Of a DNA stretch of 38,186 nucleotides, positions 2,475 through 34,608 are shown in pieces (positions within the stretch are counted from its first letter, which is position 1; every line of letters begins with the position of its first letter). Both the position numbers and the translations under genes were made by a program. The notes beneath the pieces are model-generated. The model was not told the DNA's origin. It was given only the letters and a program-made list of their open reading frames with translations, and did not search any database. Source of the stretch: Candidatus Omnitrophota bacterium (GTDB lineage: Bacteria > Omnitrophota > Gorgyraeia > Aquiviventales > Aquiviventaceae); contig JACPRA010000009.1 in the NCBI GenBank assembly GCA_016190215.1, forward strand, positions 1-38,186. The letters run 5' to 3'.

Positions 2475-2516
2475 CAGGTACCAGGTACCTGGACTAACGC
2501 TGTACGCTGAACGCTG
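2475..2516. repeat. Degenerate heptamer array (CAGGTAC CAGGTAC CTGGACT AACGCTG TACGCTG AACGCTG)
   Basis: Six consecutive 7-mers in one phase; includes the perfect palindrome CCAGGTACCTGG. Confidence 0.7.
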
Positions 2517-2519
2517 TTC

Positions 2520-2993
2520 TTAGGTGGGCCGGTCAACCTTCTTGACCTTGTAGGGCACTTTGGCCTTCGGCAGCTCCAGCGTGAACTCGTCGCCCGCTTT
2601 CTTGCCCAGCACGCTCTTGCCCAGCGGCGAGGCGATGGAAATCCTGCCCTGCTGCGGATCGGCCTCTTCCGGCCCGACCAAGATATAGGTCACTTCTTCC
2701 TTGATCTGGATGTCGATCAAGGTCACGCGCGTGCCCATTCGGGCTTCCCCGGCGGCCACGTCCAAATCGTCAATGATCCGCACGTTGCTCAGCTTGATCT
2801 CCAGCTCGGTCAGGCGGGTGCCGACGTGCATGAGGTGCTCTTTGGCGGCGTGATATTCGCCGTTTTCGCGCAGGTCGCCCAGCGCGGCGGCTTTGTTGAC
2901 TTCCTGCTGCAGCTCCAGCTTGCGCTTCTGCAACGTCTTGTATTCGTCTTGAAGCTTTTTGAGCCCGACTTTGGTGAGATACGTTTCTGACAT
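2520..2993 (-). CDS. greA: Transcription elongation factor GreA
   Basis: 157 aa; MSETYLTKVGLKKLQDEYKTLQKRKLELQQEVNKAAALGDLRENGEYHAAKE... and C-terminal SPLGKSVLGKKAGDEFTLELPKAKVPYKV. Confidence 0.95.
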   Translation of the reverse strand: MSETYLTKVGLKKLQDEYKTLQKRKLELQQEVNKAAALGDLRENGEYHAAKEHLMHVGTRLTELEIKLSNVRIIDDLDVAAGEARMGTRVTLIDIQIKEEVTYILVGPEEADPQQGRISIASPLGKSVLGKKAGDEFTLELPKAKVPYKVKKVDRPT

Positions 2994-3044
2994 GGTAGGT
3001 CTAGCCTAGCGAGCGAGTCCGGCGCTGTCAATCCCCCGACGCCG

Positions 3045-4382
3045 TTACGCCGTCAACAGGATCGGCACCAGCCGCCCGCCCTGGGAAATGTTGACCACGC
3101 CCTGCGGCGACGAGCGCCCCAGGAACGCCACGCCGTCGGCGGTGGCCATCACCCCGACGATGACGAACTCCGGGGCGGTCTTCGAGCCGCCGCGTCCGTC
3201 CAGGAACGTCACGCGGGGCAACGGCACGGTTTCCTGCACCACCCAGGTGTCCGGGCGGGCCAGGGCGTCCTTCAGCACGCCGTCCCAGGCGGATTGCGTG
3301 AGCGTGGAGCCGATCGCGACTCCCTGCCCGCCATACGACCGGTTGGGCTTCAGCACCAGGCGGTCGCGGTGCCGACGCGCGAAGACCGGCAGGTCCACGA
3401 GGCGCCCCCGGAGGTCCGTGGTCTTCCGCTCCCGCAGGAGCCGGGTCCAGGGCACCCGGACTCGCAGCATCCGGCGCTGGGCCGGGGTGAAATAGCGGGC
3501 GAACTCCGGGCTGGAGAGCACCTCGCACAAGCTCTTGTGGTCAAACTCCCCCGCCAGCGCGGAGATCACCCGGTTGCGCCGGAACGCCTCGCGCATGGCT
3601 GTGACGTCGCCGCCGTGCCGCTCGATGGAGATCAGCTCGCTCAAGCTGCAGTCCCGGTAGAGCAGATCCACCACGATGTCCTTGTACATGAGCTCGTCCC
3701 GCCGCCACTCCAGTTCCCTGGGGTCCGCGACCACCGTCGGCAGTCCCTGCTGCTGCAGGTACTGGCTGACGAAGAGCATTTCGTCCGATCCGCCCACCGG
3801 CATCTCGCGGCGCTCCACGAACGCGGTCACGGCGCAGGGCCGCCGGATCGCCTGCGCGTGCCGGCGCAGCATGTGCATCAGCAGGTGCCGCGGATCGGCG
3901 CTGAGCTCGATGGGGCAGCCCTTCACCGCCGGGCGCAGGGTGGGCAGCACGTGCTCGGCCACGAGCTGATTGGCCATCGGCAGAAAGTGCAGGCAGCCCA
4001 CGCCCACCGAATTCCATTCTAAAATCTTGAACCGCCGCAGCCCGTCCCGTCGCTCGAGGATCAGGTTGGTGTCCAGCCGCTCAAAGATCGGGATGGGCGT
4101 GGGCGGGCCCTTCGGCGCGACGTCGGCCAGCCAGGCGCGCTCATCCGGGTCGAGCGGCAGGACCTGCTGCAGGGCCGGATCGGCAAGATAGTTCGAGAGG
4201 ACGGCGGTAATCGCCTCGCGCAAGCGAAGGCTGATGGCTTGTAACTCGACCGCATGCGCGCGGGAGAGGAGCCAGGGGACCGGGTGGATGGCCACCGGCT
4301 CGTCTGTATTGTCGCCTGTCTTGGGGGAGGTGAAGAGGGTGATGTGGCGCTGGCGGGCGCCGTCAGCCAACTGCGCGACCAA
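3045..4382 (-). CDS. ATP-grasp-like protein (circularly permuted ATP-grasp / glutathionylspermidine synthase-like)
   Basis: 445 aa; 'RLVLKPNRSYGGQGVAIG...' ATP-grasp-type segment; start position (TTG) uncertain. Confidence 0.5.
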   Translation of the reverse strand: MVAQLADGARQRHITLFTSPKTGDNTDEPVAIHPVPWLLSRAHAVELQAISLRLREAITAVLSNYLADPALQQVLPLDPDERAWLADVAPKGPPTPIPIFERLDTNLILERRDGLRRFKILEWNSVGVGCLHFLPMANQLVAEHVLPTLRPAVKGCPIELSADPRHLLMHMLRRHAQAIRRPCAVTAFVERREMPVGGSDEMLFVSQYLQQQGLPTVVADPRELEWRRDELMYKDIVVDLLYRDCSLSELISIERHGGDVTAMREAFRRNRVISALAGEFDHKSLCEVLSSPEFARYFTPAQRRMLRVRVPWTRLLRERKTTDLRGRLVDLPVFARRHRDRLVLKPNRSYGGQGVAIGSTLTQSAWDGVLKDALARPDTWVVQETVPLPRVTFLDGRGGSKTAPEFVIVGVMATADGVAFLGRSSPQGVVNISQGGRLVPILLTA

Positions 4383-4494
4383 TTGGCGGCGCCACGCCGG
4401 CGGCTGCCGGAGCAGCGCGGAGAGGAGCCGTGGACGATTCGGACGACGCGCGAAGCGGAACGTCCTGCTTCCTCTCTGGGTTCCGTGAGGCGCG

Positions 4495-5010: not shown

Positions 5011-5020
5011 GCAACACCTC

Positions 5021-5353
5021 CTATGATGAGTTGGGTTGAGTGTAACGCGAAGCGGTAGTCGTGTCAATCGCGCGGGGTATTCGGCGCGCGGCGCGGATCA
5101 CCCGCCAGGCGATGCCGCCGACCAGCAGGATTGGCGTCCCGATCAGCGCCACGATGCTCAGCGCATAGGCCAGGGCCGCCCGCTGGGAGAGCGCCGGGTC
5201 GCCGCTTGAGAGCAGCGCATCCTTGCACATCGGGCAGGCCCAAGCGCTCGGAGACCACAACACGAGGCAGACAGCAGACAGCACACAACAGACAGCGACC
5301 TGCCAGGCAGTGTGGATGTTCCGTGTGCTGTGTGCTGTGTGCTGTGTGCTCAT
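5021..5353 (-). CDS. Small membrane protein of the cox cluster (CPMCKDAL motif, C-terminal TM)
   Basis: MSTQHTAHSTRNIHTAWQVAVCCVLSAVCLVLWSPSAWACPMCKDALLSSGDPALSQRAALAYALSIVALIGTPILLVGGIAWRVIRAARR; N-terminus encoded by a heptamer array. Confidence 0.6.
   Translation of the reverse strand: MSTQHTAHSTRNIHTAWQVAVCCVLSAVCLVLWSPSAWACPMCKDALLSSGDPALSQRAALAYALSIVALIGTPILLVGGIAWRVIRAARRIPRAIDTTTASRYTQPNSS
5267..5350. repeat. Degenerate heptamer inverted array (12 heptamers)
   Basis: GCAGACA GCAGACA GCACACA ACAGACA | GCGACCT GCCAGGC AGTGTGG ATGTTCC | GTGTGCT x4; inverted arms in one 7-nt phase, spacer 28 nt = 4x7. Confidence 0.85.
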
Positions 5354-5769
5354 CATAGGCGATACAGCATCCAATAAACGATCACGCCGGTCACGGACAC
5401 GTAGAGCCACACGGGGAACGTCACGCGCGCCAGCCGGCGGTGCGCGTCGAATTCGTGGCGCAGGGCCAGCCGCAGCGTCCGCCAGATCAAGGGCACGAGC
5501 GCGATCGCCAGTGCCGTGTGGGACGCCAGCACCGTGAAATAGAACGCGCGCGCCGCGCCCGCGCCGCGGAAGTGCACCGAGCCCACCTGGGCATGATAGC
5601 ATACGTAGCTCAACAGAAACGCCGTCGAGGTGGCGCACGCCGCCAGCATGAGGCTCGCGTGCGTCGCCACGCGGCCGCGGCGGATCGCCCCGAACCCCAC
5701 AAGGATGAGCACGCCGCTCGTGGCATTGAGCGAGGCATTGATCGTGGGGACCGCCTCGAGCCAGGTCAT
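5353..5769 (-). CDS. DUF420-like integral membrane protein of cytochrome oxidase cluster
   Basis: 138 aa with 4 predicted hydrophobic segments, next to SCO and ctaB. Confidence 0.6.
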   Translation of the reverse strand: MTWLEAVPTINASLNATSGVLILVGFGAIRRGRVATHASLMLAACATSTAFLLSYVCYHAQVGSVHFRGAGAARAFYFTVLASHTALAIALVPLIWRTLRLALRHEFDAHRRLARVTFPVWLYVSVTGVIVYWMLYRL

Positions 5770-6374
5770 CGCGTCGCGGACAACGCCCGGACATCCCGCA
5801 GCAAACGATCCGCTTCCGCCGGATCCTCCGCATCATAGTAGCCCCGCAGATGGCCCTGCGGATCCACCAATACCAGGCGCGTGCTGTGCGTAATCGGTTC
5901 GTCGGGAGGCCCCTCTTCTCCAACGGCCAGATGGAACCCGTCCCGGCAGAGCTGGTAGAGCGCGGTTTTCTCGCCGGTGACGAATATCCACCGCCCGTCC
6001 TGCGCGCGATAGCGCTCGGCATATGCCGCGAGCACCTCCGGGGTGTCCCATCCGGGATCCACGGTGAATGACACCCGCTGCACCTCCTGCGGCAGGCGCG
6101 ACCCCAGCGCGGCCATGCGATCCGACATCATCAGGCACTGGCCCGCGCACCGGGTGAAGATGAAATCCGCCACCCACGCCCGGCCGGCCAGCGTCGCCTG
6201 AGTGATCCGGCGCCCCTCGTGATCCATCAGCGAAAACTCCGGGAGCGCGCCGTAGTCCGGCGGCGGAGCGGCCCCAACTCTTGAACGAGCCCACGCAGCA
6301 AACAGCACACAGCAGACAGCACACACCGCGACCCACCTCTGTGTGCTGTGTGCTGTCTGCAGCCGCGTGTTCAT
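5766..6374 (-). CDS. SCO1/SenC-family copper chaperone-like protein
   Basis: 202 aa; FSLMDHEGRRITQATLAGRAWVADFIFTRCAGQCLMMSDRM... SCO-type CxxxC motif; STRLVLVDPQGHLRGYYD. Confidence 0.85.
   Translation of the reverse strand: MNTRLQTAHSTQRWVAVCAVCCVLFAAWARSRVGAAPPPDYGALPEFSLMDHEGRRITQATLAGRAWVADFIFTRCAGQCLMMSDRMAALGSRLPQEVQRVSFTVDPGWDTPEVLAAYAERYRAQDGRWIFVTGEKTALYQLCRDGFHLAVGEEGPPDEPITHSTRLVLVDPQGHLRGYYDAEDPAEADRLLRDVRALSATR
6296..6358. repeat. Degenerate heptamer inverted array (9 heptamers) overlapping SCO signal-peptide codons
   Basis: CAGCAAA CAGCACA CAGCAGA CAGCACA | CACCGCG ACCCACC | TCTGTGT GCTGTGT GCTGTCT; one 7-nt phase. Confidence 0.85.
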
Positions 6375-6378
6375 TGGA

Positions 6379-15995: not shown

Positions 15996-17466
15996 AGACG
16001 CGCTGAGGCGCCTCCTCGAAGCCGTCCCGGCCCCGCGCGTCGCGCGCCTGGAGCTGGATGACGCGCTGGGGTTGGCGCTGGCGCGCCCGGTGGCGGCGCG
16101 CCTGGACCTGCCCCGCTTCGACAACAGCGCCGTGGACGGCTACGCCGTGCGGCCGCGCCGCGGCGCCGCGCCTGATCTTCGTTTCCGCGTCATTGGGACC
16201 GCGGCCGCGGGATGCCCCTTCCCCGGCGCGGTCGGCGAGGGAGAGGCGGTCCGCATCTTCACGGGCGCGCCCCTTCCCCGCGGCGCGGAGGCGGTCCTCA
16301 TGCAGGAACAGGTGCGGCGGCAGGCTGGTAGGATTGCGATTGCCTCATCGCCCGCTCCCGGCCAACATATCCGCCGCCGGGGGGAAGACCTTCGCCGGGG
16401 CGATCAGGTGTTGGCCGCCGGCACGGTGCTTCGCTCTCAGGAGATCGGCACCTTGGCGGCGCTGGGCGCTCGCGCCGTCGCGGTGGCCGCGCGTCCCACC
16501 GTCGCGGTCCTCACCACGGGCGATGAGCTCCAACGCCCCGGCGCTCCCTTGAAGCCGGGACAGATTTACGAAAGCAACGGCGCGCTGGTGCGCGCGCTGG
16601 TCCGGCAAGCCGGCGCGACACCGCGATGGCTGGGAGTAGCGCCGGACGGCCTCCCGTCGCTGACCAGGGCGATCCGGCGGGGATTGCAGTCGGACGTCCT
16701 GGTGATCACCGGCGGCGTCTCGGTGGGCGACAAAGATTTCGTCCGGGCGGCGGCGCGCCGGTGCGGCGTGCGGCAACTGTGCTGGCAAGTCAGCATCAAG
16801 CCGGGCATGCCGTTCTTCGCCGGCCGGCGCGGGCGGACGCTGGTGTTCGGCCTCCCCGGCAACCCGGTCTCCGTCTTCGTGACGTTCGAAGAGCTGGTGA
16901 AGCCCGCGCTGGCGCGGTTGATGGGGCGCGCGTGGGCCGACGGGTACACGACGTCCGCCGCCCTGGCGACCGACGTGCGCGTGTCCGCGTCGCGCCGGAC
17001 CCACTTCATGCGCGTTCAGTGCGTCCCGCGCGATGGCCGGCTGCTCGCTCAGCCGCTCAACGGACAAGGTTCGCACCACCTGCGCACGCTCGTCGAGGCC
17101 GATGGATGGATCCGGCTGACGGCTGATGAGGGACCGTGGCCAGCCGGCGCGCCAGTGCTTGTTAAACAGGAGCGTGACACGCGACAAGTTATATGTGACA
17201 TGTCACATATAACGGGACGAGAGAAGCGTCACACGTATCATGTCACCTGTCACTTGTCACTTGTCACTTGTCACGGGATTCGTGCTGGCGGGCGGCCGAT
17301 CGAGCCGGATGGGACAGGAGAAGGCTTGGCTCCCCCTGGGCCCGCGCACACTCATCGAATCCGTCATCGAGCGGCTGCGGCCCGCCGTGGACCGCGTGGT
17401 CGTCATCGGCAACAGCGCCAACGCCACGCGGCTGCGGACGCTGCGCGTGTCGGAGGTGCTCATTGA
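15982..17466 (+). CDS. moeA: Molybdopterin molybdenumtransferase MoeA, with an aberrant ~100 aa readthrough C-terminus
   Basis: MLAYEDALRRLLEAVPAPRVARLELDDALG...TGDELQRPG...ITGGVSVGDKDFV...LPGNPVSVFVTFEELVKPAL; domain ends near LVKQE (~17170), then reads through the heptamer array into mobA out of frame. Confidence 0.88.
   Translation: MLAYEDALRRLLEAVPAPRVARLELDDALGLALARPVAARLDLPRFDNSAVDGYAVRPRRGAAPDLRFRVIGTAAAGCPFPGAVGEGEAVRIFTGAPLPRGAEAVLMQEQVRRQAGRIAIASSPAPGQHIRRRGEDLRRGDQVLAAGTVLRSQEIGTLAALGARAVAVAARPTVAVLTTGDELQRPGAPLKPGQIYESNGALVRALVRQAGATPRWLGVAPDGLPSLTRAIRRGLQSDVLVITGGVSVGDKDFVRAAARRCGVRQLCWQVSIKPGMPFFAGRRGRTLVFGLPGNPVSVFVTFEELVKPALARLMGRAWADGYTTSAALATDVRVSASRRTHFMRVQCVPRDGRLLAQPLNGQGSHHLRTLVEADGWIRLTADEGPWPAGAPVLVKQERDTRQVICDMSHITGREKRHTYHVTCHLSLVTCHGIRAGGRPIEPDGTGEGLAPPGPAHTHRIRHRAAAARRGPRGRHRQQRQRHAAADAARVGGAH
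17172..17276. repeat. Degenerate heptamer inverted array (15 heptamers) with 26-bp perfect palindrome
   Basis: GCGTGAC ACGCGAC AAGTTAT ATGTGAC ATGTCAC ATATAAC GGGACGA GAGAAGC GTCACAC GTATCAT GTCACCT GTCACTT GTCACTT GTCACTT GTCACGG; palindrome GTTATATGTGACATGTCACATATAAC at 17188-17213. Confidence 0.9.
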
Positions 17467-17860
17467 CGCCGCGCCGGGCTGCGGGCCGCTCATGGGCGTG
17501 TTCACCGGGCTCATGCACACGGCAACACCGCTGAACGTGTTCGTGTCCTGCGATATGCCGTGGATTGAAGGCCGGCTGATCGAACAGCTCCTGACCGCGT
17601 GCCGCGGCGGGACGGCAATCGCCGCCGGAGCGCATCCCGACGACGGCCCCCAACCCTTTCCGCTCGTCTGTCACACCGCGGCCTGCCGGACCATCGGAGC
17701 GCTGCTGGATGCCGGAGAGCGCGCGCTCCAGGCGCTGCTGCGCCACCCGCAGGCCTCCGTGGCCGCCGTCGAGGACCCAACGCTGTGGCGATCGTTCGCG
17801 AACGTCAACACCGCCGCCGACTATGCCCGGCTCGCTCATGAACACACTCTCGCACATTGA
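17240..17860 (+). CDS. mobA: Molybdenum cofactor guanylyltransferase MobA
   Basis: MSPVTCHLSLVTGFVLAGGRSSRMGQEKAWLPLGPRTLIE... MobA nucleotide-binding motif LAGGRSSRMG; start codon lies inside the heptamer array. Confidence 0.88.
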   Translation: MSPVTCHLSLVTGFVLAGGRSSRMGQEKAWLPLGPRTLIESVIERLRPAVDRVVVIGNSANATRLRTLRVSEVLIDAAPGCGPLMGVFTGLMHTATPLNVFVSCDMPWIEGRLIEQLLTACRGGTAIAAGAHPDDGPQPFPLVCHTAACRTIGALLDAGERALQALLRHPQASVAAVEDPTLWRSFANVNTAADYARLAHEHTLAH

Positions 17861-18341
17861 CCGCCGCGGGCGCGCCAGGATGGTGGACGTCGGCCGCAAG
17901 ACGCCGACGCGCCGCCACGCGCGAGTCCAGGGCGTGGTCCACGTGTCGCCGGACGCCTTCGCGGCCCTCCAGGCGCACACCCTGGCGAAGGGCGATGCGT
18001 TCACCGTCGCCCACCTGGCCGGCATCCAAGCCGCGAAACGGACATGGGAGCTGATCCCCTTGTGCCACCCCGTCCCCATCGAGCATGTCGAGGTCGCGTG
18101 CGAGCCTGAGGCGGCGACGACGACCATCCGGGTGACTGCCACCGCGACGACGACGGCCAAAACCGGCATCGAAATGGAAGCGTTCACCGCGTGCCTCATC
18201 GCCTGCCTCGCGCTGTACGACATGGTCAAAGCGGTGGACCCGTCGGCGACGATCACCGACGTTCAACTCGTCCAGAAGAGTGGCGGAAAGCGGGAATTTT
18301 CACGGGAAATTTCCAATGACCAAATTCCAAATTCCAAATAA
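17838..18341 (+). CDS. moaC: Cyclic pyranopterin monophosphate synthase MoaC
   Basis: MNTLSHIDRRGRARMVDVGRKTPTRRHARVQG...LIPLCHPVPIEHVEV...TGIEMEAFTACLIACLALYDMVKAVDPSATITDVQLVQKSGGK; stop codon lies in the repeat element. Confidence 0.95.
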   Translation: MNTLSHIDRRGRARMVDVGRKTPTRRHARVQGVVHVSPDAFAALQAHTLAKGDAFTVAHLAGIQAAKRTWELIPLCHPVPIEHVEVACEPEAATTTIRVTATATTTAKTGIEMEAFTACLIACLALYDMVKAVDPSATITDVQLVQKSGGKREFSREISNDQIPNSK

Positions 18342-18439
18342 ATTCCAAGCCTCAATGACCAACATTCCAAACGTTTGGAATGTAGTGCTTGGAGCTTGGT
18401 GCTTATTTGATGATTGGAATTTGGTGCTTGGTGATTTCC
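18305..18439. repeat. Long imperfect inverted repeat made of CCAA+NNN / TTGG+NNN words with a central 20-bp palindrome
   Basis: GGAAATTTCCAATGACCAAATTCCAAATTCC...CATTCCAAACGTTTGGAATG...TTGGTGCTTGGTGATTTCC; CCAA/TTGG words mostly spaced 7, with symmetric 11- and 14-nt gaps in both arms. Confidence 0.88.
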
Positions 18440-18461
18440 TCAGTGGTTCAGGAGCTGATTC

Positions 18462-18974
18462 ATGCGCGCAGCCATCCTCACGGTAAGCGACCGCTCGTTC
18501 CGCGGCGAGCGGCCGGACGGGAGCGGGCCGGTGCTGCAGCAGTTGCTGCGCGCCTTCGGCGCCGAGGTCATCGAGCTGACCGTTGTGCCTGACGAGGCGT
18601 CCGTCATCGCGCAGACGCTGATCCGGATGGCCGACGAGACCCGCTGCGAGATGATCCTCACGACCGGAGGCACCGGGTTGTCCCCGCGCGACGTGACGCC
18701 GGACGCCACGGCCCAGGTGATCGAGAAGCGGCTGCCGGGCATGGAAGAGGCGATCCGGCAGGAGAGCCTCAAACAGACGCCCTTCGCGATGCTCTCGCGC
18801 GCGATCGTCGGCGCGCGCGGGCAGACGCTCATCATCAACATGCCCGGCAGCCCGAAAGCGGTCCGGGAATGTTTCGCCGTGGTGGAGCCGGTCCTGAGTC
18901 ATGCGGTGAAATTGCTGCGTGATGAAAACCCGTATGCGGAGACTGATCACGTATGCCGTCCCTCACGCTCCTGA
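18462..18974 (+). CDS. mogA: Molybdopterin adenylyltransferase-like protein (MogA/MoaB family)
   Basis: MRAAILTVSDRSFRGERPDGSGPVL...ILTTGGTGLSPRDVTPDATAQVIEKRLPGMEEAIRQESLKQTPFAMLSRAIVGARGQTLIINMPGSPKAVRE. Confidence 0.93.
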   Translation: MRAAILTVSDRSFRGERPDGSGPVLQQLLRAFGAEVIELTVVPDEASVIAQTLIRMADETRCEMILTTGGTGLSPRDVTPDATAQVIEKRLPGMEEAIRQESLKQTPFAMLSRAIVGARGQTLIINMPGSPKAVRECFAVVEPVLSHAVKLLRDENPYAETDHVCRPSRS

Positions 18975-19687
18975 TCCTCATTTTTCTCGTCGCGCTGGTG
19001 TACGCCTCGGTCGGCCAGGGCGGCGCGTCAGGCTATCTCGCCGCCATGACGCTCCTGGAGTATGCGCCCGCGTTCATGGCCTCGAGCGCGCTGATCCTGA
19101 ACCTCTTCGTCGCCGGGACGGCCTGGCTGATGTTCCGGCGCGCCGGCCATGGGTCGCGGGAACTGCTCTGGCCCTTCGTCGCCGGATCGGTGCCGGCCGC
19201 GCTCCTCGGCGGGTGGCTGCCGGTGTCGCCGCGGACGTACGGCGGGCTCCTGGCGCTCGCCCTGGTGGTGGCGGCCGTCCGCCTCTGGCTGCCGGCGGCG
19301 CAACCGCCCCGGCGGCTGAACCCGCCGACGAGGCTCGCCGCCGGCCTCATCGGAGCGGCGATCGGCTTGGTTTCCGGCATCGTGGGCGTCGGCGGCGGCA
19401 TCTTCCTCAGCCCCCTGCTGATCCTGCTGGGCTGGGCGGATCCGAAGCGCTCCGCCGCCGCTTCCGCCGGGTTCATCGTCGTCAACTCGGCCGCCGGGCT
19501 CGCGGGGCGGGTCGCGGCCGGGCGGCTCCTGATCGGAACGTGCTGGCCCTTGATCGGCGCGGCATTCCTGGGGGGCCTGGTTGGTTCGCGATTGGGGGCG
19601 CACCGATTTTCGGGCCTGTGGATGCGGCGCCTGCTTGCCGGCGTGCTGGCCGTCGCCGCCGGCAAATTGGCGGTCGCGCATGGTTGA
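18953..19687 (+). CDS. TauE/SafE family sulfite exporter-like permease
   Basis: Multi-TM; VALVYASVGQGGASGYLAAMTLLEYAP...GIVGVGGGIFLSPLLILLGWADPKRSAAASAGFIVVNSAAGLAGR. Confidence 0.85.
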   Translation: MPSLTLLILIFLVALVYASVGQGGASGYLAAMTLLEYAPAFMASSALILNLFVAGTAWLMFRRAGHGSRELLWPFVAGSVPAALLGGWLPVSPRTYGGLLALALVVAAVRLWLPAAQPPRRLNPPTRLAAGLIGAAIGLVSGIVGVGGGIFLSPLLILLGWADPKRSAAASAGFIVVNSAAGLAGRVAAGRLLIGTCWPLIGAAFLGGLVGSRLGAHRFSGLWMRRLLAGVLAVAAGKLAVAHG

Positions 19688-20027
19688 GATCATCGCGGTC
19701 ATCCGGCGGAAGCGCCGGACGGCGACCACCGCGGAATTGGAACGCATCCGCTGCGCCGGCTACTCCCAGTGGTCCGTCTTGGGCCGGGGCCGTGAGCGGG
19801 GGCTGCGGGACGCCGGCGGGGGTGCCGGCGTGCCCTTTCTGCCGAAGACGCTGTTCCATCTCGTCGTCGAGGATGCCGACGCGGCGGAAACCATCGAAGC
19901 CCTCATCCGCGCCAACCAGACCGGCGAGTTCGGAGACGGGCGGATTTTCGTCCTTGAGGCCGAGCAGGCGTACCGAATTTCCACTGGGGAACACGGACCG
20001 TGGCGACAGGTGACAAGTGACAGGTAA
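19680..20027 (+). CDS. NifI2-like PII family protein (second pair)
   Basis: MVEIIAVIRRKRRTATTAELERIRCAGYSQWSVLGRGRERGLRD...VPFLPKTLFHLVVEDADAAETIEALIRANQTGEFGDGRIFVLEAEQAYRISTGE; stop codon inside heptamer array. Confidence 0.85.
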   Translation: MVEIIAVIRRKRRTATTAELERIRCAGYSQWSVLGRGRERGLRDAGGGAGVPFLPKTLFHLVVEDADAAETIEALIRANQTGEFGDGRIFVLEAEQAYRISTGEHGPWRQVTSDR

Positions 20028-20064
20028 CATGTCACATGTAACTTGTTGCGTGTCACGTGTCGCG
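20002..20064. repeat. Degenerate heptamer inverted array (9 heptamers)
   Basis: GGCGACA GGTGACA AGTGACA GGTAACA TGTCACA TGTAACT TGTTGCG TGTCACG TGTCGCG. Confidence 0.88.
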
Positions 20065-20086
20065 ATCTGAGGAGGGTGTCGCGGTT

Positions 20087-20404
20087 ATGAAACTGATTAA
20101 AGCCGTCATCCGGCCGGATAAAGAAGCCGAGGTCGTCCGGCGGCTCGAGGAGGCCGGCTTGCCGGCCCTCACGAAGTGGGATGTGCTCGGCCGCGGCCGG
20201 CAGCGGGGCATCCAAGTGGGGGCGACGGTCTACGGGGAGCTCCCCAAGCTCTGTGTGATGCTGGTCGTTGAGGACAGCGAGGCGGCGAAGGCCCTCGAGG
20301 CGATCATGAGCGCCGCCAGGACCGGCCATCCGGGCGACGGCCGGATCTTCGTCAGCGAGGTCAAAACAGCGTACACGATCCGCACCGGAAAATCGGATGC
20401 GTAA
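20087..20404 (+). CDS. NifI1-like PII family protein (second pair)
   Basis: MKLIKAVIRPDKEAEVVRRLEEAGLPALTKWDVLGRGRQRGIQVGATVYGELPKLCVMLVVEDSEAAKALEAIMSAARTGHPGDGRIFVSEVKTAYTIRTG. Confidence 0.9.
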   Translation: MKLIKAVIRPDKEAEVVRRLEEAGLPALTKWDVLGRGRQRGIQVGATVYGELPKLCVMLVVEDSEAAKALEAIMSAARTGHPGDGRIFVSEVKTAYTIRTGKSDA

Positions 20405-20408
20405 CAAA

Positions 20409-20497
20409 GGAAACGAGTGATGAATTGTGAATGGCGAATGCTGAAGGATGACTGAAAATATGTGTTCAGCATTCATGATTCAGCATTCATCATTTCC
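20409..20497. repeat. GAAT+NNN heptamer inverted array
   Basis: Arms 20418-20445 and 20465-20492 (inverted) match 23/28; all 5 differences fall in the variable trimers between conserved GAAT tetramers. Confidence 0.85.
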
Positions 20498-20512
20498 TAA
20501 AGGAGGCGGACA

Positions 20513-21739
20513 ATGCGGCTGAAGGATTTTGCGAAAAGCGGACACCCGCCGACGCTGTTCTCGGCGTTTCTGTACTTCGACATCAGCTTCATGGTGTGGG
20601 TGCTTATCGGCGTGCTCGGCGTCCACATCGCGGGCAGCTTCGGGCTCACCGCGAGCCAGAAAGGCTTGCTGGTGGCCATTCCGATCCTAGGAGGCTCGCT
20701 GGTGCGGATTCCCCTCGGCGTGCTGGTGGACCGCATCGGCCCGAAACGGACCGGCATCCTGGGCCAGCTCCTGGTGATGCTTCCCCTGGCGTGGGCGTGG
20801 CTGTTCGGGCACAGCTTCCACGAGTTCCTGGCGCTCGGGCTGCTGCTGGGGATTGCGGGGGGCAGTTTCGCCGTGGCCTTGCCGCTGGCCAGCCGGTGGT
20901 ATCCGCCGCAGCACCAGGGCTTGGCGATGGGCATTGCCGGCGCCGGGAACAGCGGCACCGTGCTGGCCGCGCTGTTGGCGCCGCGCCTGGCTGAGCGCGT
21001 CGGCTGGCATAACGTGTTCGGCTTGGCGCTCATCCCCGTCGTGGCGACGCTGCTGCTCTATAGCCTCCTGGCGAAGGAAAGCCCGTCCCAGCCCGCGCCC
21101 AAACCGCTGCGGGATTACTTGGGCCTGTGCCGCGAGCGCGACACGTGGTGGTTCTGCCTCTTTTACAGCTTCACGTTCGGCGGCTTCGTGGGCCTGGCGA
21201 GCTTCCTGACGATCTTCTTCCACGACCAGTACGGCCTCGCGAAAGTGATGGCCGGCAACTTCACGGCCCTGTGCGTCTTCGCCGGGAGCTTCCTGCGCCC
21301 GGTCGGCGGCTACCTGGCGGACCGCTTCGGCGGCACGCGCATGCTGGCCGTCCTCTTCGCGTGCGCCTCCGTCGGCCTCATCGCCGTCGGCACGCTGCCC
21401 CCCTTGTGGCTGGTCACCACGCTGCTATTCTTCGTGATGGCGGTCCTGGGGATGGGGAACGGGTCGGTGTTCCAGTTGGTCCCGCAGCGTTTTCGGAAGG
21501 AAATCGGCGTGGCGACGGGCGTGGTGGGGGCCGCCGGCGGGATGGGCGGATTTTTCCTGCCGTCGTTCCTGGGGGTGTTGAAAGATTGGACCGGGTCGTA
21601 CGGGTCAGGGTTCCTCTGCTTTGGTGTTGCCGGCCTGGTGTGCTTAGGGCTGCTGCGCGTCGTCCGGCAAGGGTGGCATCTCTCCTGGCTGTCCACCGCC
21701 CTCGAGGCGATGCGCGCGCAACCGCAGCCGGAACCGTGA
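20513..21739 (+). CDS. MFS nitrate/nitrite transporter (NarK/NasA-type permease)
   Basis: MRLKDFAKSGHPPTLFSAFLYFDISFMVWVLIGVLGVHIAGSFGLTASQKGLLVAIPILGGSLVRIPLGVLVDRIGPKRTG...NGSVFQLVPQRFRKEIGVATGVVGAAGGMGGFFLP. Confidence 0.93.
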   Translation: MRLKDFAKSGHPPTLFSAFLYFDISFMVWVLIGVLGVHIAGSFGLTASQKGLLVAIPILGGSLVRIPLGVLVDRIGPKRTGILGQLLVMLPLAWAWLFGHSFHEFLALGLLLGIAGGSFAVALPLASRWYPPQHQGLAMGIAGAGNSGTVLAALLAPRLAERVGWHNVFGLALIPVVATLLLYSLLAKESPSQPAPKPLRDYLGLCRERDTWWFCLFYSFTFGGFVGLASFLTIFFHDQYGLAKVMAGNFTALCVFAGSFLRPVGGYLADRFGGTRMLAVLFACASVGLIAVGTLPPLWLVTTLLFFVMAVLGMGNGSVFQLVPQRFRKEIGVATGVVGAAGGMGGFFLPSFLGVLKDWTGSYGSGFLCFGVAGLVCLGLLRVVRQGWHLSWLSTALEAMRAQPQPEP

Positions 21740-21742
21740 GGA

Positions 21743-21798
21743 GCGCGACACGTGACACGTAACAAGTTACATGTCACCTGTCACATGTTACATGTGAC
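21743..21798. repeat. Degenerate heptamer inverted array (8 heptamers)
   Basis: GCGCGAC ACGTGAC ACGTAAC AAGTTAC ATGTCAC CTGTCAC ATGTTAC ATGTGAC. Confidence 0.88.
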
Positions 21799-23095
21799 AG
21801 GATGTGTGCTGGCCCTCAGCCTCCTCGCCGCCGGCCGCGCGGCCGCCGAGGCGCCGCCGGAACAGTCGGCCGCCCCGCGACCGTTCGCCTTCACCGCCGG
21901 CGGGGAGGTGCGTTACCGGCTTGAGCTGCGGGACGACTTTACGTTCAACGACGACGCGTATGAGGACGACGCCGTCCATCTTCTGCGCACGCGCCTCCAC
22001 TTCGACCTGAAGGCGGGAACGCTCGCACGGCTCTTCGTCCAAGGCCAAGACGCGGAGAGCTTCGCCGGCAGCGGCCTGAACCGGACCAATACGTCCATCA
22101 ATCGGCTCGACCTGCGCCAGCTCTTCGTCGAGCTCAAAAGCCCGGTGGAGGCGCTTCCCGCCACGCTGAAAATCGGCCGCCAAGAGCTGGTCTACGGCGA
22201 CCAGCGGTTCGTCGGCGCCTTCGACTGGTCCAACGTGGCGCGCGTCTTCGACGCGGTCAAAGCGAGCTGGGCCCCTGCCGCATGGGCGCAACTCGATGGT
22301 TGGTTCAGCCAAGTGGTGCTGACGGATCGCGTCCGGCCGGATTCGGCGGACCATGGAGAAAGTTTCTACGGCCTCTACGGCGCGTTCAAGCCGATCACGA
22401 ACCACAGCTTGGACGCCTTCCTCTTCGTCCGCCACGACCGCGACAACGAGCTGCGCGGGGAGATCACCAGCCGTCGCGGCCAGCTCAAGGAATACACGGT
22501 CGGCTCCCGGTTCAAGGGTAAGCGCGGCGCGTGGGATTACGGGGTGGAAGGGGCGTGGCAATTCGGCTCGCGCGCCCATGAGGACATCCGGGCCTGGGCC
22601 TGGCACCAGGAGCTGGGCTATACCTTCGCGGAGGCGCCGTGGAGCCCCCGCCTGGGGATGGAATACAACCACGGTTCCGGCGATGAGGACACCGGCGACG
22701 GGACGGTCGGCAGCTTCGACAACCTCTTCCCCACGAACCATCCCTACTACGGCTACATGGATGTCGCCGGCCTCCGTAATCTGGACCACCTCGAGGCGAA
22801 CCTGACCCTCAAGCCGGCGAAGCCGCTGACGGTCCTGGCAAAGTACCACTGGTTCTTCCTCGACACGAACAAGAGCGCCTGGTTCAACGCCGGCCAGGGC
22901 GTCATCCGCGCCGCGGGGGCGAGCGCCAGCGAGACGTTGGGCCAGGAGGCGGATTTCTTGGTGAAGTGGCAGGTCAACCAACATGTTGACACGTTGCTGG
23001 GCTACTCGCACTTCCATGCCGGCGCCTTCGCGCGGGACACCGGCGCCCACGATGACGCGAACTTCGCCTATTGGCAAACCACGGTGAAATTCTAA
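21785..23095 (+). CDS. Outer-membrane porin, alginate-export (AlgE)-like
   Basis: Signal MLHVTGCVLALSLLAAGRAAA; EVRYRLELRDDFTFND...KIGRQELVYGDQRFVGAFDWSNVARVFDAVK...; terminal aromatic-rich strand ANFAYWQTTVKF. ORF is open from 21752. Confidence 0.82.
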   Translation: MLHVTGCVLALSLLAAGRAAAEAPPEQSAAPRPFAFTAGGEVRYRLELRDDFTFNDDAYEDDAVHLLRTRLHFDLKAGTLARLFVQGQDAESFAGSGLNRTNTSINRLDLRQLFVELKSPVEALPATLKIGRQELVYGDQRFVGAFDWSNVARVFDAVKASWAPAAWAQLDGWFSQVVLTDRVRPDSADHGESFYGLYGAFKPITNHSLDAFLFVRHDRDNELRGEITSRRGQLKEYTVGSRFKGKRGAWDYGVEGAWQFGSRAHEDIRAWAWHQELGYTFAEAPWSPRLGMEYNHGSGDEDTGDGTVGSFDNLFPTNHPYYGYMDVAGLRNLDHLEANLTLKPAKPLTVLAKYHWFFLDTNKSAWFNAGQGVIRAAGASASETLGQEADFLVKWQVNQHVDTLLGYSHFHAGAFARDTGAHDDANFAYWQTTVKF

Positions 23096-23106
23096 CCCCC
23101 GCGCCG

Positions 23107-25299
23107 ATGCCGTCTCCTGAGCGCGTCACCATGCAGGTGGTCCAAGACACCGGGGAGATCATTGAAACCCCGCTCACCCCGGAGGATCTGGCCCTCTCCT
23201 GGAAGAAAAGCGTCTGCCCGTACTGCGGGGTCGGCTGCGGCGTCCTGGTGGGCAGTAAAACAGGGCGCGTCCTCAAGGTGCGCGGCGACCACAATCATCC
23301 CGCGAACCACGGCCTGCTCTGCGGCAAAGGCGCCACCCTGCCGCAGATGGTGCACACGCCGGACCGGCTTGCCCATCCCATGATGCGCACAGCGCGCCAG
23401 GCCGGCTTGCAGCCGGCCTCCTGGGACGACGCGCTGGGGCGGATCGCCGCGGAGTGGCGGCGGATCATCCGCGATCACGGCCCGAATGCCGTGGCCTTTT
23501 ACGTCTCCGGCCAGCTGCTTACCGAAGACTACTACGTCGTCAACAAGCTCGCCAAAGGGTTCCTCGGCACCAACAACGTGGATTCGAACTCGCGCCTGTG
23601 CATGGCCAGCGCCGTGTCCGGCTACATGACCTCGCTCGGGGCGGATGCCCCGCCGGGCTGCTACGCCGACATCGAGCTGGCGGATTGCTTCCTGCTGATC
23701 GGCACCAACACCGCGGCCTGCCATCCGGTCACGTTCGAGCGGATCCGCCGCCGCAAACTGCGCGCGCCCGGCCGGGTGAAGGTGCTCGTCGCGGACCCGC
23801 GCAAGACCCGCACCGCCGACATCGCCGATATCTACCTGCCGATCCGGCCCGGCACTGACGTCGCACTGCTCAACGCGATGCTGCACGTCCTCGTCCGAGA
23901 CGGCTTGACCGACGCGCGCTACATCCAGCGGCACACCAGCGGCTGGGACGCCATCGCCGCACTCGTCGAGCAGTATCCGCCGGAGCGGGCGGCTGAGCTT
24001 TGCGGGGTGGCGGCTGATGCCATCATCGCCGCGGCCCGGCTCTTCGGGCGCGCCCGGGCGGCGATGAGCTTCTGGAGCATGGGGCTGAACCAATCCACCC
24101 ACGGCACCGCCAAGAACAACGGCGTCATCAATCTCCATATGGCCACGGGTCAGATCGGCCGTCCCGGTGCGGGCCCCTTCTCGCTGACGGGCCAGCCCAA
24201 TGCGATGGGCGGACGCGAAACCGGCGGGCTCGCCCACCTGTTGCCGGGGCATCGGTTGGTGGCCGACGAATCGCACCGCCGGGCGGTCGAAACCCTCTGG
24301 GGGCTGCCGGCGGGCCGCATCAGCCCCACGCCAGGCCTCACGGCGGTGGATCTGTTCAAGCAGATGGCGGAGGGCCGCGTGAAGAGCGTGTGGATCCTTT
24401 GCACCAACCCGATGGTGTCTATGCCGAACCTCTCCCTGGCCCGGCGCGCGCTGGAGCAGGCCGAGCTGGTCATCGTCAACGACATCTATCACCCCACCGA
24501 AACCACGCAACTGGCCGACGTGCTCCTGCCGGCCGCCCAGTGGTCGGAGCGGGACGGCACCGTCACCAACTCCGAGCGCTGCATCTCCTACCTGGAGCAG
24601 GCCATCGAGCCGCCAGGGGAGGCGCTGCCGGACTGGCAGATCCTGTGCCGGTTCGCGCAGATGATGGGGTGGGGAGAGGCCTTCGGGTTCGCGAATGCCG
24701 AGGCGGTGTACGAGGAATACAAATCGCTCACGCGCGGGCAGGACTTGGACATCGGCGGAGTCACGTACGACCGGCTCAAGCAGGGGCCGCTCCAGTGGCC
24801 CTGCCCGACGCCGCAGCACCGCTCCACCATGCGGCGGTACACCACCGGGGTCTTCAGCCACCCGGACGGCAAGGCGCGGTTCCTCGCCCACGAATATAAA
24901 GCGCCGGCCGAGCCGCCGGACGCGCAGTTTCCGATGGCGCTGACGACCGGCCGCGTGCGGGACCAGTGGCACACCATGACGCGCACCGGCAAGATCCCCG
25001 TCCTGATGAAGAAAGAGCCGGAGCCGTTCCTGGAGCTCCATCCTCAGGATGCCGCGCCGCTGGGCATCGGCGAGGGGGACCGGGTCACCGTCCGCTCCCG
25101 CCGAGGCGAGGCGTCGGCGAAGACCCGCCTCACGACGACGATCACGCCGGGCACCTGTTTCATGCCGTTTCATTGGGGCGGACTATGGGGCGAGGCCGTC
25201 GTCAACCAGGCAACGACCGACGCCTATGATCCGACCTCGAAGCAGCCGGAGCTGAAGTTCTGCGCGGTCCGACTTGAGAAAGTGACAAGTGACACGTGA
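23107..25299 (+). CDS. Assimilatory nitrate reductase catalytic subunit (molybdopterin oxidoreductase)
   Basis: [4Fe-4S] motif CPYCGVGCGVLVG...GLLCGKG; ...NSNRLCMASA-like region; ...DQWHTMTRTGKIPVLMKKEPEPFLELHP. Stop codon inside heptamer array. Confidence 0.92.
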   Translation: MPSPERVTMQVVQDTGEIIETPLTPEDLALSWKKSVCPYCGVGCGVLVGSKTGRVLKVRGDHNHPANHGLLCGKGATLPQMVHTPDRLAHPMMRTARQAGLQPASWDDALGRIAAEWRRIIRDHGPNAVAFYVSGQLLTEDYYVVNKLAKGFLGTNNVDSNSRLCMASAVSGYMTSLGADAPPGCYADIELADCFLLIGTNTAACHPVTFERIRRRKLRAPGRVKVLVADPRKTRTADIADIYLPIRPGTDVALLNAMLHVLVRDGLTDARYIQRHTSGWDAIAALVEQYPPERAAELCGVAADAIIAAARLFGRARAAMSFWSMGLNQSTHGTAKNNGVINLHMATGQIGRPGAGPFSLTGQPNAMGGRETGGLAHLLPGHRLVADESHRRAVETLWGLPAGRISPTPGLTAVDLFKQMAEGRVKSVWILCTNPMVSMPNLSLARRALEQAELVIVNDIYHPTETTQLADVLLPAAQWSERDGTVTNSERCISYLEQAIEPPGEALPDWQILCRFAQMMGWGEAFGFANAEAVYEEYKSLTRGQDLDIGGVTYDRLKQGPLQWPCPTPQHRSTMRRYTTGVFSHPDGKARFLAHEYKAPAEPPDAQFPMALTTGRVRDQWHTMTRTGKIPVLMKKEPEPFLELHPQDAAPLGIGEGDRVTVRSRRGEASAKTRLTTTITPGTCFMPFHWGGLWGEAVVNQATTDAYDPTSKQPELKFCAVRLEKVTSDT

Positions 25300-25308
25300 C
25301 AGGTGACA
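25281..25308. repeat. Short single-orientation heptamer array (AGTGACA AGTGACA CGTGACA GGTGACA)
   Basis: Four in-phase 7-mers at the nasA/moaA junction. Confidence 0.8.
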
Positions 25309-29865: not shown

Positions 29866-29870
29866 CTTGT

Positions 29871-29911: not shown

Positions 29912-29930
29912 GTCTCAGACCAATAGGATC

Positions 29931-30220
29931 TAGCGGGGGGCCGATTTGAACGGCCGACCTTCGGGTTATGCATACCACCACAGCTTTCGCTGCTTCACCA
30001 ACATTCCTTGGCGAATTTGTGGTCTGGACTATACCTTCATCCGCCACAACCCATTAGCGGATGCCCGCCGTCTAGTCTCTACACCTGCCCCACAGTATCA
30101 TGGGGATTGGCTCGGTATTACCAGTGAAGGCTTCACCGAATTTGACGGGAATTGCCTCAACCGTTACCGGCTGAGCGGCCCTCTTGAGCCCGACGAGCTA
30201 CCTGGCTGCTCCACCCCGCA
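29931..30220 (-). tRNA. Initiator tRNA-fMet (CAU), intron-interrupted; exons 30220-30187 and 29970-29931
   Basis: Spliced: TGCGGGGTGGAGCAGCCAGGTAGCTCGTCGGGCT^CATAACCCGAAGGTCGGCCGTTCAAATCGGCCCCCCGCTA (74 nt, no encoded CCA); GGG/CCC anticodon stem, 1-72 mismatch and A11-U24 as in bacterial initiators. Confidence 0.95.
29971..30186 (-). other. Group I intron (IC3-like, ~216 nt) inserted between U33 and C34 of initiator tRNA
   Basis: 5' exon ends in U, intron ends in G; P1 GGCU/GGCC with U.G wobble; P7 GACTA...TAGTC in GAGACTAGACGGCGGGC / AAGGTATAGTCC; P8 CATCCGC/GCGGATG; CAGC-GAAA-GCTG hairpin. Confidence 0.92.
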
Positions 30221-30262
30221 GCGAAGACGAAGGCTGATTATAGCGCGTTGCGAGGTGGAGGG

Positions 30263-31869
<1,607 letters not shown>

Positions 31870-32001
31870 CTACGCCGGCGACGGAGGCAAGCGAAGGCGG
31901 CAGACTCGTTATCTTCTTCCCTATCAATAAATAAGCAGAAATAGCAAATTCCCCCGTTTCGTTGACAGGCTCTGCGCGCGTATGCTATAGTCAGTGTTGA
32001 C

Positions 32002-33699
32002 ATGAACAAAGACACGAACAAACGCATCCCCGTCGTCAGAAAACTCCGATTTTTCTGGGAACTCCACTGGGTCAAGCTGGCGTGCATCTTGGTCCTGCTG
32101 GTCTGCATCCTCATGCCTGTCTTCGTGTTAAGCAAGATCGACTCCTACCAGCGGCTGTACATCATCGCCCTGTTGTCCATCTTCCCCATCGAAGCCATCT
32201 TGAGCGCCGCCTTCTTCGTCGTGTTCCTCTACTGGCTCCACTACGGCGGCGGCAGCTTCAGCAAGATGAACAAAAGCATGATCCGCGGCGACCAGGTGAA
32301 CGTCCGCTGGGATGAAGTCATCGGCATGGAAGAGGCCAAGCAGGAAGCCGGCGAGGTCGTGGAGCTGCTCCGGGACCACCTCCGGGTGGAACAGATCGGC
32401 GGCAAGGTGCTGCGCGGCGTGCTGCTCTCCGGGCCGCCGGGCTGCGGGAAGACCTACCTGGCCAAAGCCATCGCCACCGAATCCGGCCTGCCCTTCCTCT
32501 CGGTGTCCGGCTCGGAGTTCATCGAGATCTTCGTCGGCACCGGGCCGGCACGCGTGCGCAAGATCTTCAAGAAGGCGCAGCAGATGGCCCGGATCGAGGG
32601 CGGCTGCATCATCTTCATTGATGAGCTTGACGCGGTAGGCACCTCGCGCGGCGCCGACCTGGGCTTCGGCGCGCAGACCGAGCGCAACAACACCGTCAAC
32701 GAGCTGCTGGTCCAGATGGACGGGTTGGAAAGCTCCCGCTACAACATCGTGGTCATCGCCGCCACCAACGCCAGCGAGGCCGTGCTGGACCAAGCGCTGC
32801 TGCGCCCCGGCCGGCTGGACCGCAAGATTTACGTGGACCGCCCCGGCCTCGACGACCGCCAAAAACTCTACGCGTTCTACCTGACCAAAGTGAAAACGGA
32901 CCCCGGCGTGGACACCGCGCGGCTGGCGCGCCGGTCGGTGTGGAAGTCGCCCGCCGACATCGAGAACATCGTCAAGGAAGCCGCGCTGATCGCCACGCGC
33001 AACAAGCGCGACATCGTCACCTCGAAGGACCTCTCCGACGCGCTGGAGCGCATCGAGATGGGCTTTAAGCGGCGGCGCAAGATGAACGAGGGCGAGCGGC
33101 GTCGCATCGCCTACCATGAATCGGGCCACATCATCGTGACCTACCTGCTGCACCCGACGGACGACGTCTTCAAGGCCTCCATCGTGTCCCGGCGCGACGC
33201 GCTGGGCGTCGTGTACCACCAGCCGCGCGAAGAGCTGTTCACCTCCAGCCGCGACCGCATCCTCGCCAACATCAAGGCGGCGCTGGGCGGCTACGTGGCC
33301 GAAAAACTGAAATTCGACTCCACCTCCGACGGGGTCGCCGCCGACTTCCAGAACGCCATGCTCCAAGCGCACCAGATGGTCTGGCGGCTGGGCATGGGGA
33401 GCAACGGCTTCATCGGGGATTACGAAGTGCTGCTGGGGTCGTCCATGTTCCGTGGCGCTTCTCAGGGCGAGCGGCTCTCGGACCGCACCAAAGAGCGGCT
33501 GAACGAGGAGACGCACGCCATCCTGCTGCAGTGCTTGAAGGATGTCGACACCCTGCTTCGGGCCGAAGACAAGCTGCTGGAACGGTTCGCCACGGAGCTC
33601 CTGAAGAAAGAAGAGCTCGACTACGATGAGATCGAGGCCATCTTCGTCGAATTCGGCAAGCAGCGGATTTTCCCCGGCCCGACCGCCGCTCCCGCGTAA
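32002..33699 (+). CDS. FtsH-like AAA+ zinc metalloprotease
   Basis: Two N-terminal TM; Walker A SGPPGCGKT, Walker B IIFIDELDAVG, SRH, zinc motif HESGH. Confidence 0.88.
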   Translation: MNKDTNKRIPVVRKLRFFWELHWVKLACILVLLVCILMPVFVLSKIDSYQRLYIIALLSIFPIEAILSAAFFVVFLYWLHYGGGSFSKMNKSMIRGDQVNVRWDEVIGMEEAKQEAGEVVELLRDHLRVEQIGGKVLRGVLLSGPPGCGKTYLAKAIATESGLPFLSVSGSEFIEIFVGTGPARVRKIFKKAQQMARIEGGCIIFIDELDAVGTSRGADLGFGAQTERNNTVNELLVQMDGLESSRYNIVVIAATNASEAVLDQALLRPGRLDRKIYVDRPGLDDRQKLYAFYLTKVKTDPGVDTARLARRSVWKSPADIENIVKEAALIATRNKRDIVTSKDLSDALERIEMGFKRRRKMNEGERRRIAYHESGHIIVTYLLHPTDDVFKASIVSRRDALGVVYHQPREELFTSSRDRILANIKAALGGYVAEKLKFDSTSDGVAADFQNAMLQAHQMVWRLGMGSNGFIGDYEVLLGSSMFRGASQGERLSDRTKERLNEETHAILLQCLKDVDTLLRAEDKLLERFATELLKKEELDYDEIEAIFVEFGKQRIFPGPTAAPA

Positions 33700-33712
33700 C
33701 ACCGCTTCCCCG

Positions 33713-34546
33713 ATGCGCTCCGCTCTGCCTCGCCTGCTGGCGGCGGCACTCAGCCTGGCCCTCGCGGCCGGCTGCGCTCCCACCTACCGGCGCGAAGACG
33801 TCGCCAAGACCGTGCAAGCACTCTGTCAGACCGAGCACCGCCTCGATGTCTCCGCGCGCCAGATGGGCGACACCATCGCCGTGCACCTGCGCCACGAGGG
33901 CATTTTAGACCGGCAGGGCAACCAGATCGGCCTGGCCGCGAACGCCAATGAGGTGCTGGGCAACGTGCTCGAAGTCCTCCACCGCGTGCTCCTCAGCTCC
34001 CAGCCGATGATGCATTTCTATCTGATCCTGGTGTCCGATCCCGCCGTGCCCGGGGCCTATCTCACCATCGTGCGCTACATGGAGGACGTGCGGCGCGCCA
34101 ACGCCAACATGATCCCGCCCACCGAGCTGTTCGCGCGCACCATTCTGGACCTGAAATACGACGCCAACCTGCCCAACATCAACTTTGACCAGATCACGCT
34201 GAGCGACATCCAGCTCCAGCAATTCCTCAGCTGGCAGCTCGCGAAGCGCCTCCAAGGGCACCTGACGACGTCGCTGCAGCAGCAGGGGTTATCGGTGGCG
34301 GACGTGGGGCCGTGCCAAGGGGACTTCAAGAACGGGGAGTTTGTCTTCACGCTCAACGTGAATCTGCCCGAGGGGGCCGCCGCGCAACAGGACGTCACGC
34401 AGCAGCTCTTTCAGGACGCGACCAGCGTCATCTCGAAGGTGCTGGCGGATTACCGGTTTCAATCCTTCGATGCCATCCGGCTGCTCCATCCCGCCACGGG
34501 GCGCAGCATGCTGCTGCCCCGCTCCAGCCTCGAGCTTTTCCGGTAA
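33713..34546 (+). CDS. Lipoprotein of unknown function
   Basis: MRSALPRLLAAALSLALAAGCAPTYRREDVAKTVQALCQTEHRLDV... lipobox AAGC. Confidence 0.65.
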   Translation: MRSALPRLLAAALSLALAAGCAPTYRREDVAKTVQALCQTEHRLDVSARQMGDTIAVHLRHEGILDRQGNQIGLAANANEVLGNVLEVLHRVLLSSQPMMHFYLILVSDPAVPGAYLTIVRYMEDVRRANANMIPPTELFARTILDLKYDANLPNINFDQITLSDIQLQQFLSWQLAKRLQGHLTTSLQQQGLSVADVGPCQGDFKNGEFVFTLNVNLPEGAAAQQDVTQQLFQDATSVISKVLADYRFQSFDAIRLLHPATGRSMLLPRSSLELFR

Positions 34547-34559
34547 CTAAGACCCGTCG

Positions 34560-34608
34560 CTCGTATCTCGTGAAGCGAGATACGCTTCACGAGGCGCGCT
34601 TCACGCTG
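34560..34608. repeat. Heptamer-phased inverted repeat between convergent genes (probable bidirectional terminator)
   Basis: CTCGTAT CTCGTGA AGCGAGA TACGCTT CACGAGG CGCGCTT CACGCTG; perfect 11-bp stem CTCGTGAAGCG-AGATA-CGCTTCACGAG (34567-34593). Confidence 0.65.

Follow-up and report, generated by a model that had tools for sequence, protein, structure and literature searches.

The window analysed here, a 38,186-nucleotide stretch (contig C4) of an Omnitrophota metagenome-assembled genome (MAG) of 980 kb and 79% completeness (G000), contains arrays of short words, mostly 7 nt, that typically stand as two convergent arms; such inverted arrays form a class that is real and genome-wide. We give about an even chance to the reading that these arrays are palindromic insertion elements, small non-autonomous hairpins dispersed through the genome, which are tolerated where genes permit and whose words turn over. 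A sequence-only reading of the window had described a dispersed family of heptamer arrays, and an excess of heptamer periodicity was confirmed when self-matches were scored across lags 2-24 over 403 of the 980 kb (the window and 20 further stretches), with one dinucleotide shuffle as the control: lag 7 yielded 85 self-matching segments and the shuffle 1, its harmonics 14 and 21 yielded 59 and 11, and the remaining lags 0-9 each. The sampled sequence lists 63 array loci, and a 201-base query spanning 5267-5350 of the window had 67 BLAST matches in G000 (both strands counted). The insertion reading is supported by the absence of arrays from orthologous sites, their start just past stop codons, the convergence of the arms (108 of 111 classified pairs), inserts within PurL, copied elements, the absence of SbcD and a patchy spread across the phylum.

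The anatomy and polarity of the arrays are fixed. Arm length peaks sharply at 30-31 nt, or four heptamers plus about 3 nt. Of the 120 pairs of neighbouring arms, 108 are inverted and carry an identical or similar word, and 3 are direct; the locus-specific words with reverse-complement arms first seen in the window are therefore general. Arms point inwards in all 50 pairs of the commonest word family, CAGCANA. Comparison of the arms of each inverted pair shows consensus words that differ at no position in 33 cases, at one in 53, at two in 17 and at three in 5. Paired arms supplied 65 distinct words, and only in two rotation classes does the reverse complement also serve as a left-arm word. In a typical word five or six positions are fixed and the other one or two vary, so that the tetramer-plus-trimer grammar originally proposed is an approximation, and the words have a weak grammar in common, roughly S-W-S-M-R-G-D (2.37 nats per word vs 1.98 +/- 0.06 for letter-shuffled words). 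Mismatches do gather at the variable positions, as had been claimed: N of CAGCANA is C in 56%, G in 32%, A in 8% and T in 4%, and the remaining positions are 82-99% fixed. At N the two arms agree in 0.32 of comparisons vs 0.41 for shuffled partners (0 of 500 shuffles were that low), and CAGCANA stems therefore bear regular mismatches. A selected perfect stem would be expected to pair better at the variable position, and these pairs show the opposite. A 7-nt phase kept across the spacer, also part of the original proposal, is weak over all inverted pairs (gap modulo 7, mildly non-uniform: 25, 18, 17, 17, 12, 11, 8) and clearer in CAGCANA, where 19 of the 50 gaps fall at residue 1 and some pairs have a copied spacer in common. 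Identity between units is flat with distance (0.886, 0.877 and 0.880 at lags 7, 14 and 21). A two-step doubling from 7 to 14 to 28 nt was rejected on this independence of lag and on the 19 ABAB vs 43 AABB patterns, a count in which detection favours AABB.

The period is not 7 throughout: in relatives, 8-mers (such as GTTTGCGC and AGTGGCCC) or 9-mers (TTGAGCCCG in G008) also make up inverted arrays that follow the four-unit plan:

L097, L098, L124, L149, L156 (G017); L066, L068 (G029); L134, L170 (G008): 8-mer or 9-mer inverted arrays on the four-unit plan.

Perfect tandem units also occur, as would be expected if the arrays were plain heptamer microsatellites: slippage of the polymerase (the polymerase-footprint hypothesis cited in PMC4692102) would make the repeats, and template switching would add inverted arms; heptamers are indeed over-represented among bacterial repeats (PMC4692102). 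Slippage would not, however, give the sharp arm length of four units, which thus counts for insertion elements, and neither the ratio of 108 convergent to 3 direct partner arms nor the limitation of variation to set word positions fits it. Its look is that of the CAGCANA arrays on viral contigs, which are single, mostly longer, uniform and without a matching partner arm, and which resemble ordinary microsatellites. We consider slippage quite unlikely as the origin of the class.

In the window, eight of the ten loci to which one architecture had been ascribed are arrays by lag-7 score or folding, with best scores of 12.0-27.0; in shuffled 38-kb windows the top lag-7 score has a median of 9.6 and a 95% point of 13.6. 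The two weaker arrays, at 18305 and 20409, are backed by folding. One of the eight is a single arm that does not fold, and the other two loci are a marginal relic and a plain hairpin.

2475..2516, downstream of greA: marginal relic, three CGTTCAG-type units (AACGCTG/TACGCTG) beside a CAGGTAC repeat; lag-7 score 10.8, in the range of shuffled windows; fold z -1.4.
5267..5350, directly downstream of an open reading frame ending at 5353 (- strand): CAGCANA inverted array, left arm 5267-5296, right arm 5323-5350; scores 14.4 and 22.6; fold z -4.4.
6296..6360, in the N-terminal, signal-peptide-like end of the SCO1 frame 5766-6374 (- strand): CAGCANA inverted array; fold z -3.4.
17173..17274, intergenic: GTGACAN inverted array; score 25.6; fold z -3.4; orthologous L029 junction without array.
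18305..18439: CCAAATT-type inverted array; score 14.0; fold z -8.4; absent in L029.
20002..20064, flanked by two + strand genes: GTGACAN inverted array without spacer; score 25.2; fold z -5.9; L029 cleanly without array.
20409..20497, just upstream of the major facilitator superfamily (MFS) gene: GAATGNN inverted array, arms also recovered independently; score 12.0; fold z -4.2; absent in L029.
21743..21799, junction of the MFS gene and the alginate-export porin gene: GTGACAN palindromic array; score 27.0; fold z -2.8; absent in L029.
25280..25308 (+ strand), at the molybdopterin oxidoreductase stop codon: single GTGACAN arm; score 17.6; no fold of its own; absent in L029.
34560..34608: plain 11-bp hairpin, no array; lag-7 score 5.6, not significant; fold z -4.7.

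The CAGCANA word of 5267..5350 recurs at dozens of other places in G000. GreA, SCO1, an MFS transporter, an alginate-export porin, a molybdopterin oxidoreductase and MoaA are among the products encoded in the window, and one protein of the window has its closest named relatives in Candidatus Omnitrophota MAGs (58-75% identity).

Genes were predicted with a home-made gene caller. The coding fraction of the sampled G000 sequence is 89%, yet 68 of 98 arms lie almost entirely between genes. Arrays start a median of 5 nt past a stop codon and lie a median of 18 nt ahead of a start codon, and 41 of the 44 junction arrays are between co-directional genes. Tandem gene gaps without an array have a median of 14 nt; the position of the arrays is therefore what would be expected of any tolerated insert and is no proof of function. 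It could nonetheless be that the arrays are selected sites, either bound by a protein that recognises four-unit arms or acting as an mRNA fold that controls stability or the coupling of neighbouring genes. Fixed unit number and polarity, the placement just past stop codons at co-directional junctions, the stable hairpins formed by most window arrays, and the periodic mismatches would all suit such a role, but close relatives have the same operons without arrays, dozens of words occur per family of genomes, and some arrays lie within the PurL reading frame. Moreover, the arms are not followed by a T-tract (none was found flanking CAGCANA elements), and the arrays had no match in Rfam. We therefore hold selected sites to be very unlikely, and hairpin terminators, one of the roles suggested at the outset, are unlikely in particular, since arrays stand between co-directional pur genes and inside the purL frame and no T-tract comes after the arms.

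Presence and absence at orthologous junctions argue for insertion. All six window arrays from 17173 to 25308 are missing at the corresponding L029 junctions, and G000 arrays are also missing at orthologous sites of G001, which belongs to the same genus. Array load differs widely: there are 0.6 lag-7 segments per 100 kb in G001, 21 in G000, 27 in G017 and 42 in G024. The relatives are metagenome assemblies diverged beyond strain level, and the statistics are without correction for phylogeny; exact insertion boundaries were sought from G000/G001 and G003/G025, relatives too diverged to give them.

The pur operon, compared across the family, provides the clearest view of one site in many genomes. 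The junction upstream of purL has arrays in ten genomes, with words that are nearly all different, and two PurL loops (after IGMIGLI and before R.DALLFGES) bear array-encoded in-frame inserts in most genomes, again with many different words. These inserts are free of stop codons in all genomes except G004. Arrays of 8-mers are found in both loops of G013 and in the second loop of G002, and PurL of G001 and G006 is without loop arrays. Some genera agree in their word (G000 with G017 at loop 2, G016 with G024 at loop 1), and others differ. This gives strong support to the suggestion of interchangeable words within one architecture, with relatives differing in word at a given junction. Both loops show length differences when aligned with PurL of the solved structure 3viu, as would be expected of sites likely to tolerate inserts. 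A separate repeat, ATGATCCTTCGAC...CTCAGGATCATGGTGAGC...AGTCGAACCATGAT, lies between purQ and purS in L012 and near 13505-13585 in L029, and its junctions differ in G000 vs L029.

Different words, and even different periods, at the same PurL loops and pur junctions of related genera could also reflect rewriting in place, by a process of DNA synthesis or hairpin conversion that advances 7 nt (sometimes 8 or 9) at a time, makes about four units and can overwrite an old array; this corresponds to the heptamer-stepping synthesis proposed in the sequence-only reading. Some arrays switch word in phase along their length (L102:9391, L135:2434), and together with the constant identity of units across lags 7, 14 and 21 and the word grammar held in common they lend this idea some weight. 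Yet no instance was seen in the data of one array changing its word, array-bearing genomes are without reverse transcriptase, and complementarity of the arms at the variable position is below that of shuffled partners, where arm-to-arm copying predicts the opposite. Rewriting is, on balance, unlikely. A more specific proposal, which we regard as rather speculative and fairly unlikely, is that Omnitrophota have a dedicated process that would act at preferred sites, write about four copies of a 7-, 8- or 9-nt word as a pair of convergent arms with regular mismatches, and be able to overwrite an array while keeping its site, unit number and polarity. An origin by reverse transcription (diversity-generating retroelement, retron or defence-associated reverse transcriptase) was rejected, and with it the linked reverse transcriptase that had been envisaged: RVT_1 (PF00078) was found only in the array-free G012.

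Under the insertion reading, each element would have two arms built from one word family and pointing towards each other, each arm with about four 7-nt words (31 nt), and roughly 5-50 nt of spacer would separate them. Elements would come into being at a new site or move into it, and would be retained wherever they do little damage, as in the short gap from a stop codon to the following ribosome-binding site, in signal peptides and in length-variable protein loops. Single arms may be decayed or half elements, and the word at an occupied site would be replaced over evolutionary time, either by the landing of a new element or by concerted change of all units. Dispersal would then be the main source of arrays, with a single-stranded hairpin as the putative moving form.

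Some dispersal of whole elements is directly visible. Two GATGAT-type elements lie 11.6 kb from each other in G000; a 96-bp stretch that spans the hairpin is 94% identical between them, and their flanks differ. A 22-nt spacer, AGGAAACGCCGTAATGAAATGC, is common, whole or in part, to eight CAGCANA loci of G000 whose flanks are otherwise unrelated. Of the three causes first put forward, a mobile element class fits such recurring whole elements and the presence/absence pattern best, although no transposase is tied to the arrays. Seven near-identical copies of one element were also found in G022, where a true miniature inverted-repeat transposable element (MITE) has an array inside:

L214, L224, L231, L236, L241 (G022): MITE with ends TAGCAGGCTGCGGAAAAAC and GTTTTTCAGCACCCTGTTA and an AGTCCAT inverted array inside.

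Small, dispersed, palindromic and intergenic, the arrays do recall standard MITEs, or repetitive extragenic palindromes moved by their associated transposases (REP/RAYT), but movement by one known transposase is largely refuted as a general account and appears highly improbable. No terminal consensus or target duplications were found, there are many unrelated words per genome, and the tyrosine (REP-type) transposase Y1_Tnp (PF01797) was not found in the array-rich G017 and G024 (93% and 78% complete), whereas it is present in the array-free G001 and G006.

SbcCD cleaves hairpin DNA in other bacteria, and SbcD was undetected in 27 of 27 genomes of the family, whereas 13 of 14 control genomes scored; weak SbcC matches, mostly in long open frames, were judged to be SMC-like proteins. 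The family as a whole may thus be without this hairpin-cutting nuclease, and palindromes may persist because it is missing. Loss of SbcCD as the cause of array-richness was rejected, given that SbcD is missing in rich and poor genomes; a permissive role remains.

Several observations weigh against insertion elements as the general explanation. Most spacers occur at one locus only. Five of the six compared G022 copies sit within the MITE with inverted ends TAGCAGGCTGCGGAAAAAC...GTTTTTCAGCACCCTGTTA, and this set is a case of hitchhiking, which weakens the inference of mobility from the seven copies; arrays can, it follows, hitchhike on other mobile DNA. Among 49 CAGCANA elements there was no end consensus and no extended outer stem, target duplications were at the shuffled level, and no transposase follows array load across genomes. 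SbcD is missing from array-rich and array-free relatives alike. Finally, the shared word grammar and the recurrence of the same design at periods 8 and 9 would be unexpected of unrelated element families.

The class extends beyond the source genome. CAGCANA arrays were present in 13 of 59 relatives, every one from the same family or order, and a G-N-GTA word class occurred in 39 of 237 Omnitrophota genomes spread over many families (the reversed control pattern gave almost no matches). Several of the G-N-GTA loci have the same inverted design with other words.

Our literature search found no paper on such arrays in Omnitrophota. Among known heptamers, the short tandemly repeated repetitive sequences (STRR) of cyanobacteria are degenerate and intergenic and use a few defined words, and we know of no convergent-arm rule described for them. 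STRR are mentioned for Calothrix in PMC4692102. The closest known kind are the GGGAATC repeats of Xanthomonas, in which the architecture has a precedent, and the sequence-only reading was partly wrong to suppose that nothing similar had been described. Like the Nostoc GGGGA(C/T)T repeats, they are built of a unit 7 nt long that varies at set positions (Rehm et al. 2015, PMC4692102). They comprise mostly four units, form 70-75 convergent pairs per genome, are about 90% intergenic, near the upstream open reading frame and with few between divergent genes, and 83% of their sites are kept between the two species (PMC4692102). Judged from this published description, the Omnitrophota arrays are alike in their 7-nt unit, four-unit arms, convergence, mostly intergenic location and proximity to the preceding stop codon. 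They differ in having many words, 8- and 9-nt versions and differing words at one site. In Xanthomonas there is one G-rich word per genome and the four units have been tied to G-quadruplexes (PMC4692102), whereas the dominant Omnitrophota words (CAGCANA, GTGACAN, GCGACAA and others) are without G-tracts (no GGGANTN). Since these words are mostly unable to form quadruplexes, the four-unit rule needs another explanation.

Other systems are more distant. The TAACTGA repeats of Beggiatoaceae, some Cyanobacteria and Bacteroidetes are abundant intergenic heptamers with a patchy distribution across lineages, but they consist of one word, are nearly all direct and lie mostly just upstream of start codons (PMC4679880). 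Rickettsia palindromic elements are the best analogue for in-frame tolerance, being small palindromes found both between genes and, with no evident benefit, in frame within conserved protein genes (PMC2229807), as the Omnitrophota palindromes are in the two PurL loops. They form families of 105-146 bp with shared sequence (PMC2229807), whereas our arrays share a building rule and no family sequence (65 words, mostly unique spacers). MITEs and REP/RAYT elements are likewise small dispersed hairpins between genes, and differ in their conserved ends, target duplications and linked transposase. To the extent that our search reached, three features are new and without precedent: a lexicon that shifts, periods of 7, 8 and 9 nt, and word replacement at fixed sites.

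If the insertion reading is right, this is a class of small hairpin DNA defined not by sequence but by a construction rule, with about four short words per arm, arms that converge and a fixed polarity, and would as such be missed by family-based repeat annotation. It would span at least one phylum and, judging by the published Xanthomonas data, reach beyond it, and its four-unit rule would not require G-quadruplexes. The PurL loops and pur-operon junctions would then be natural experiments, with different words at one site in sister genera, that make the origin of heptamer repeats testable.

Two further features of the window were noted. A group I intron (RF00028, 58.1 bits) lies at 30010-30205 on the - strand; ARAGORN called no tRNA in the window, and the flanks of the intron resemble an initiator-type tRNA cut in two at its anticodon loop (GCGGGGTGGAGCAGCCAGGTAGCTCGTCGGGCTC ... 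ATAACCCGAAGGTCGGCCGTTCAAATCGGCCCCCCGCTA). Tandem paralogues at 279-1049 and 1171-2043 (+ strand), without a Pfam match, have an N-terminal LTLTTYYPSPRGVYQ motif in common and relatives in G001.

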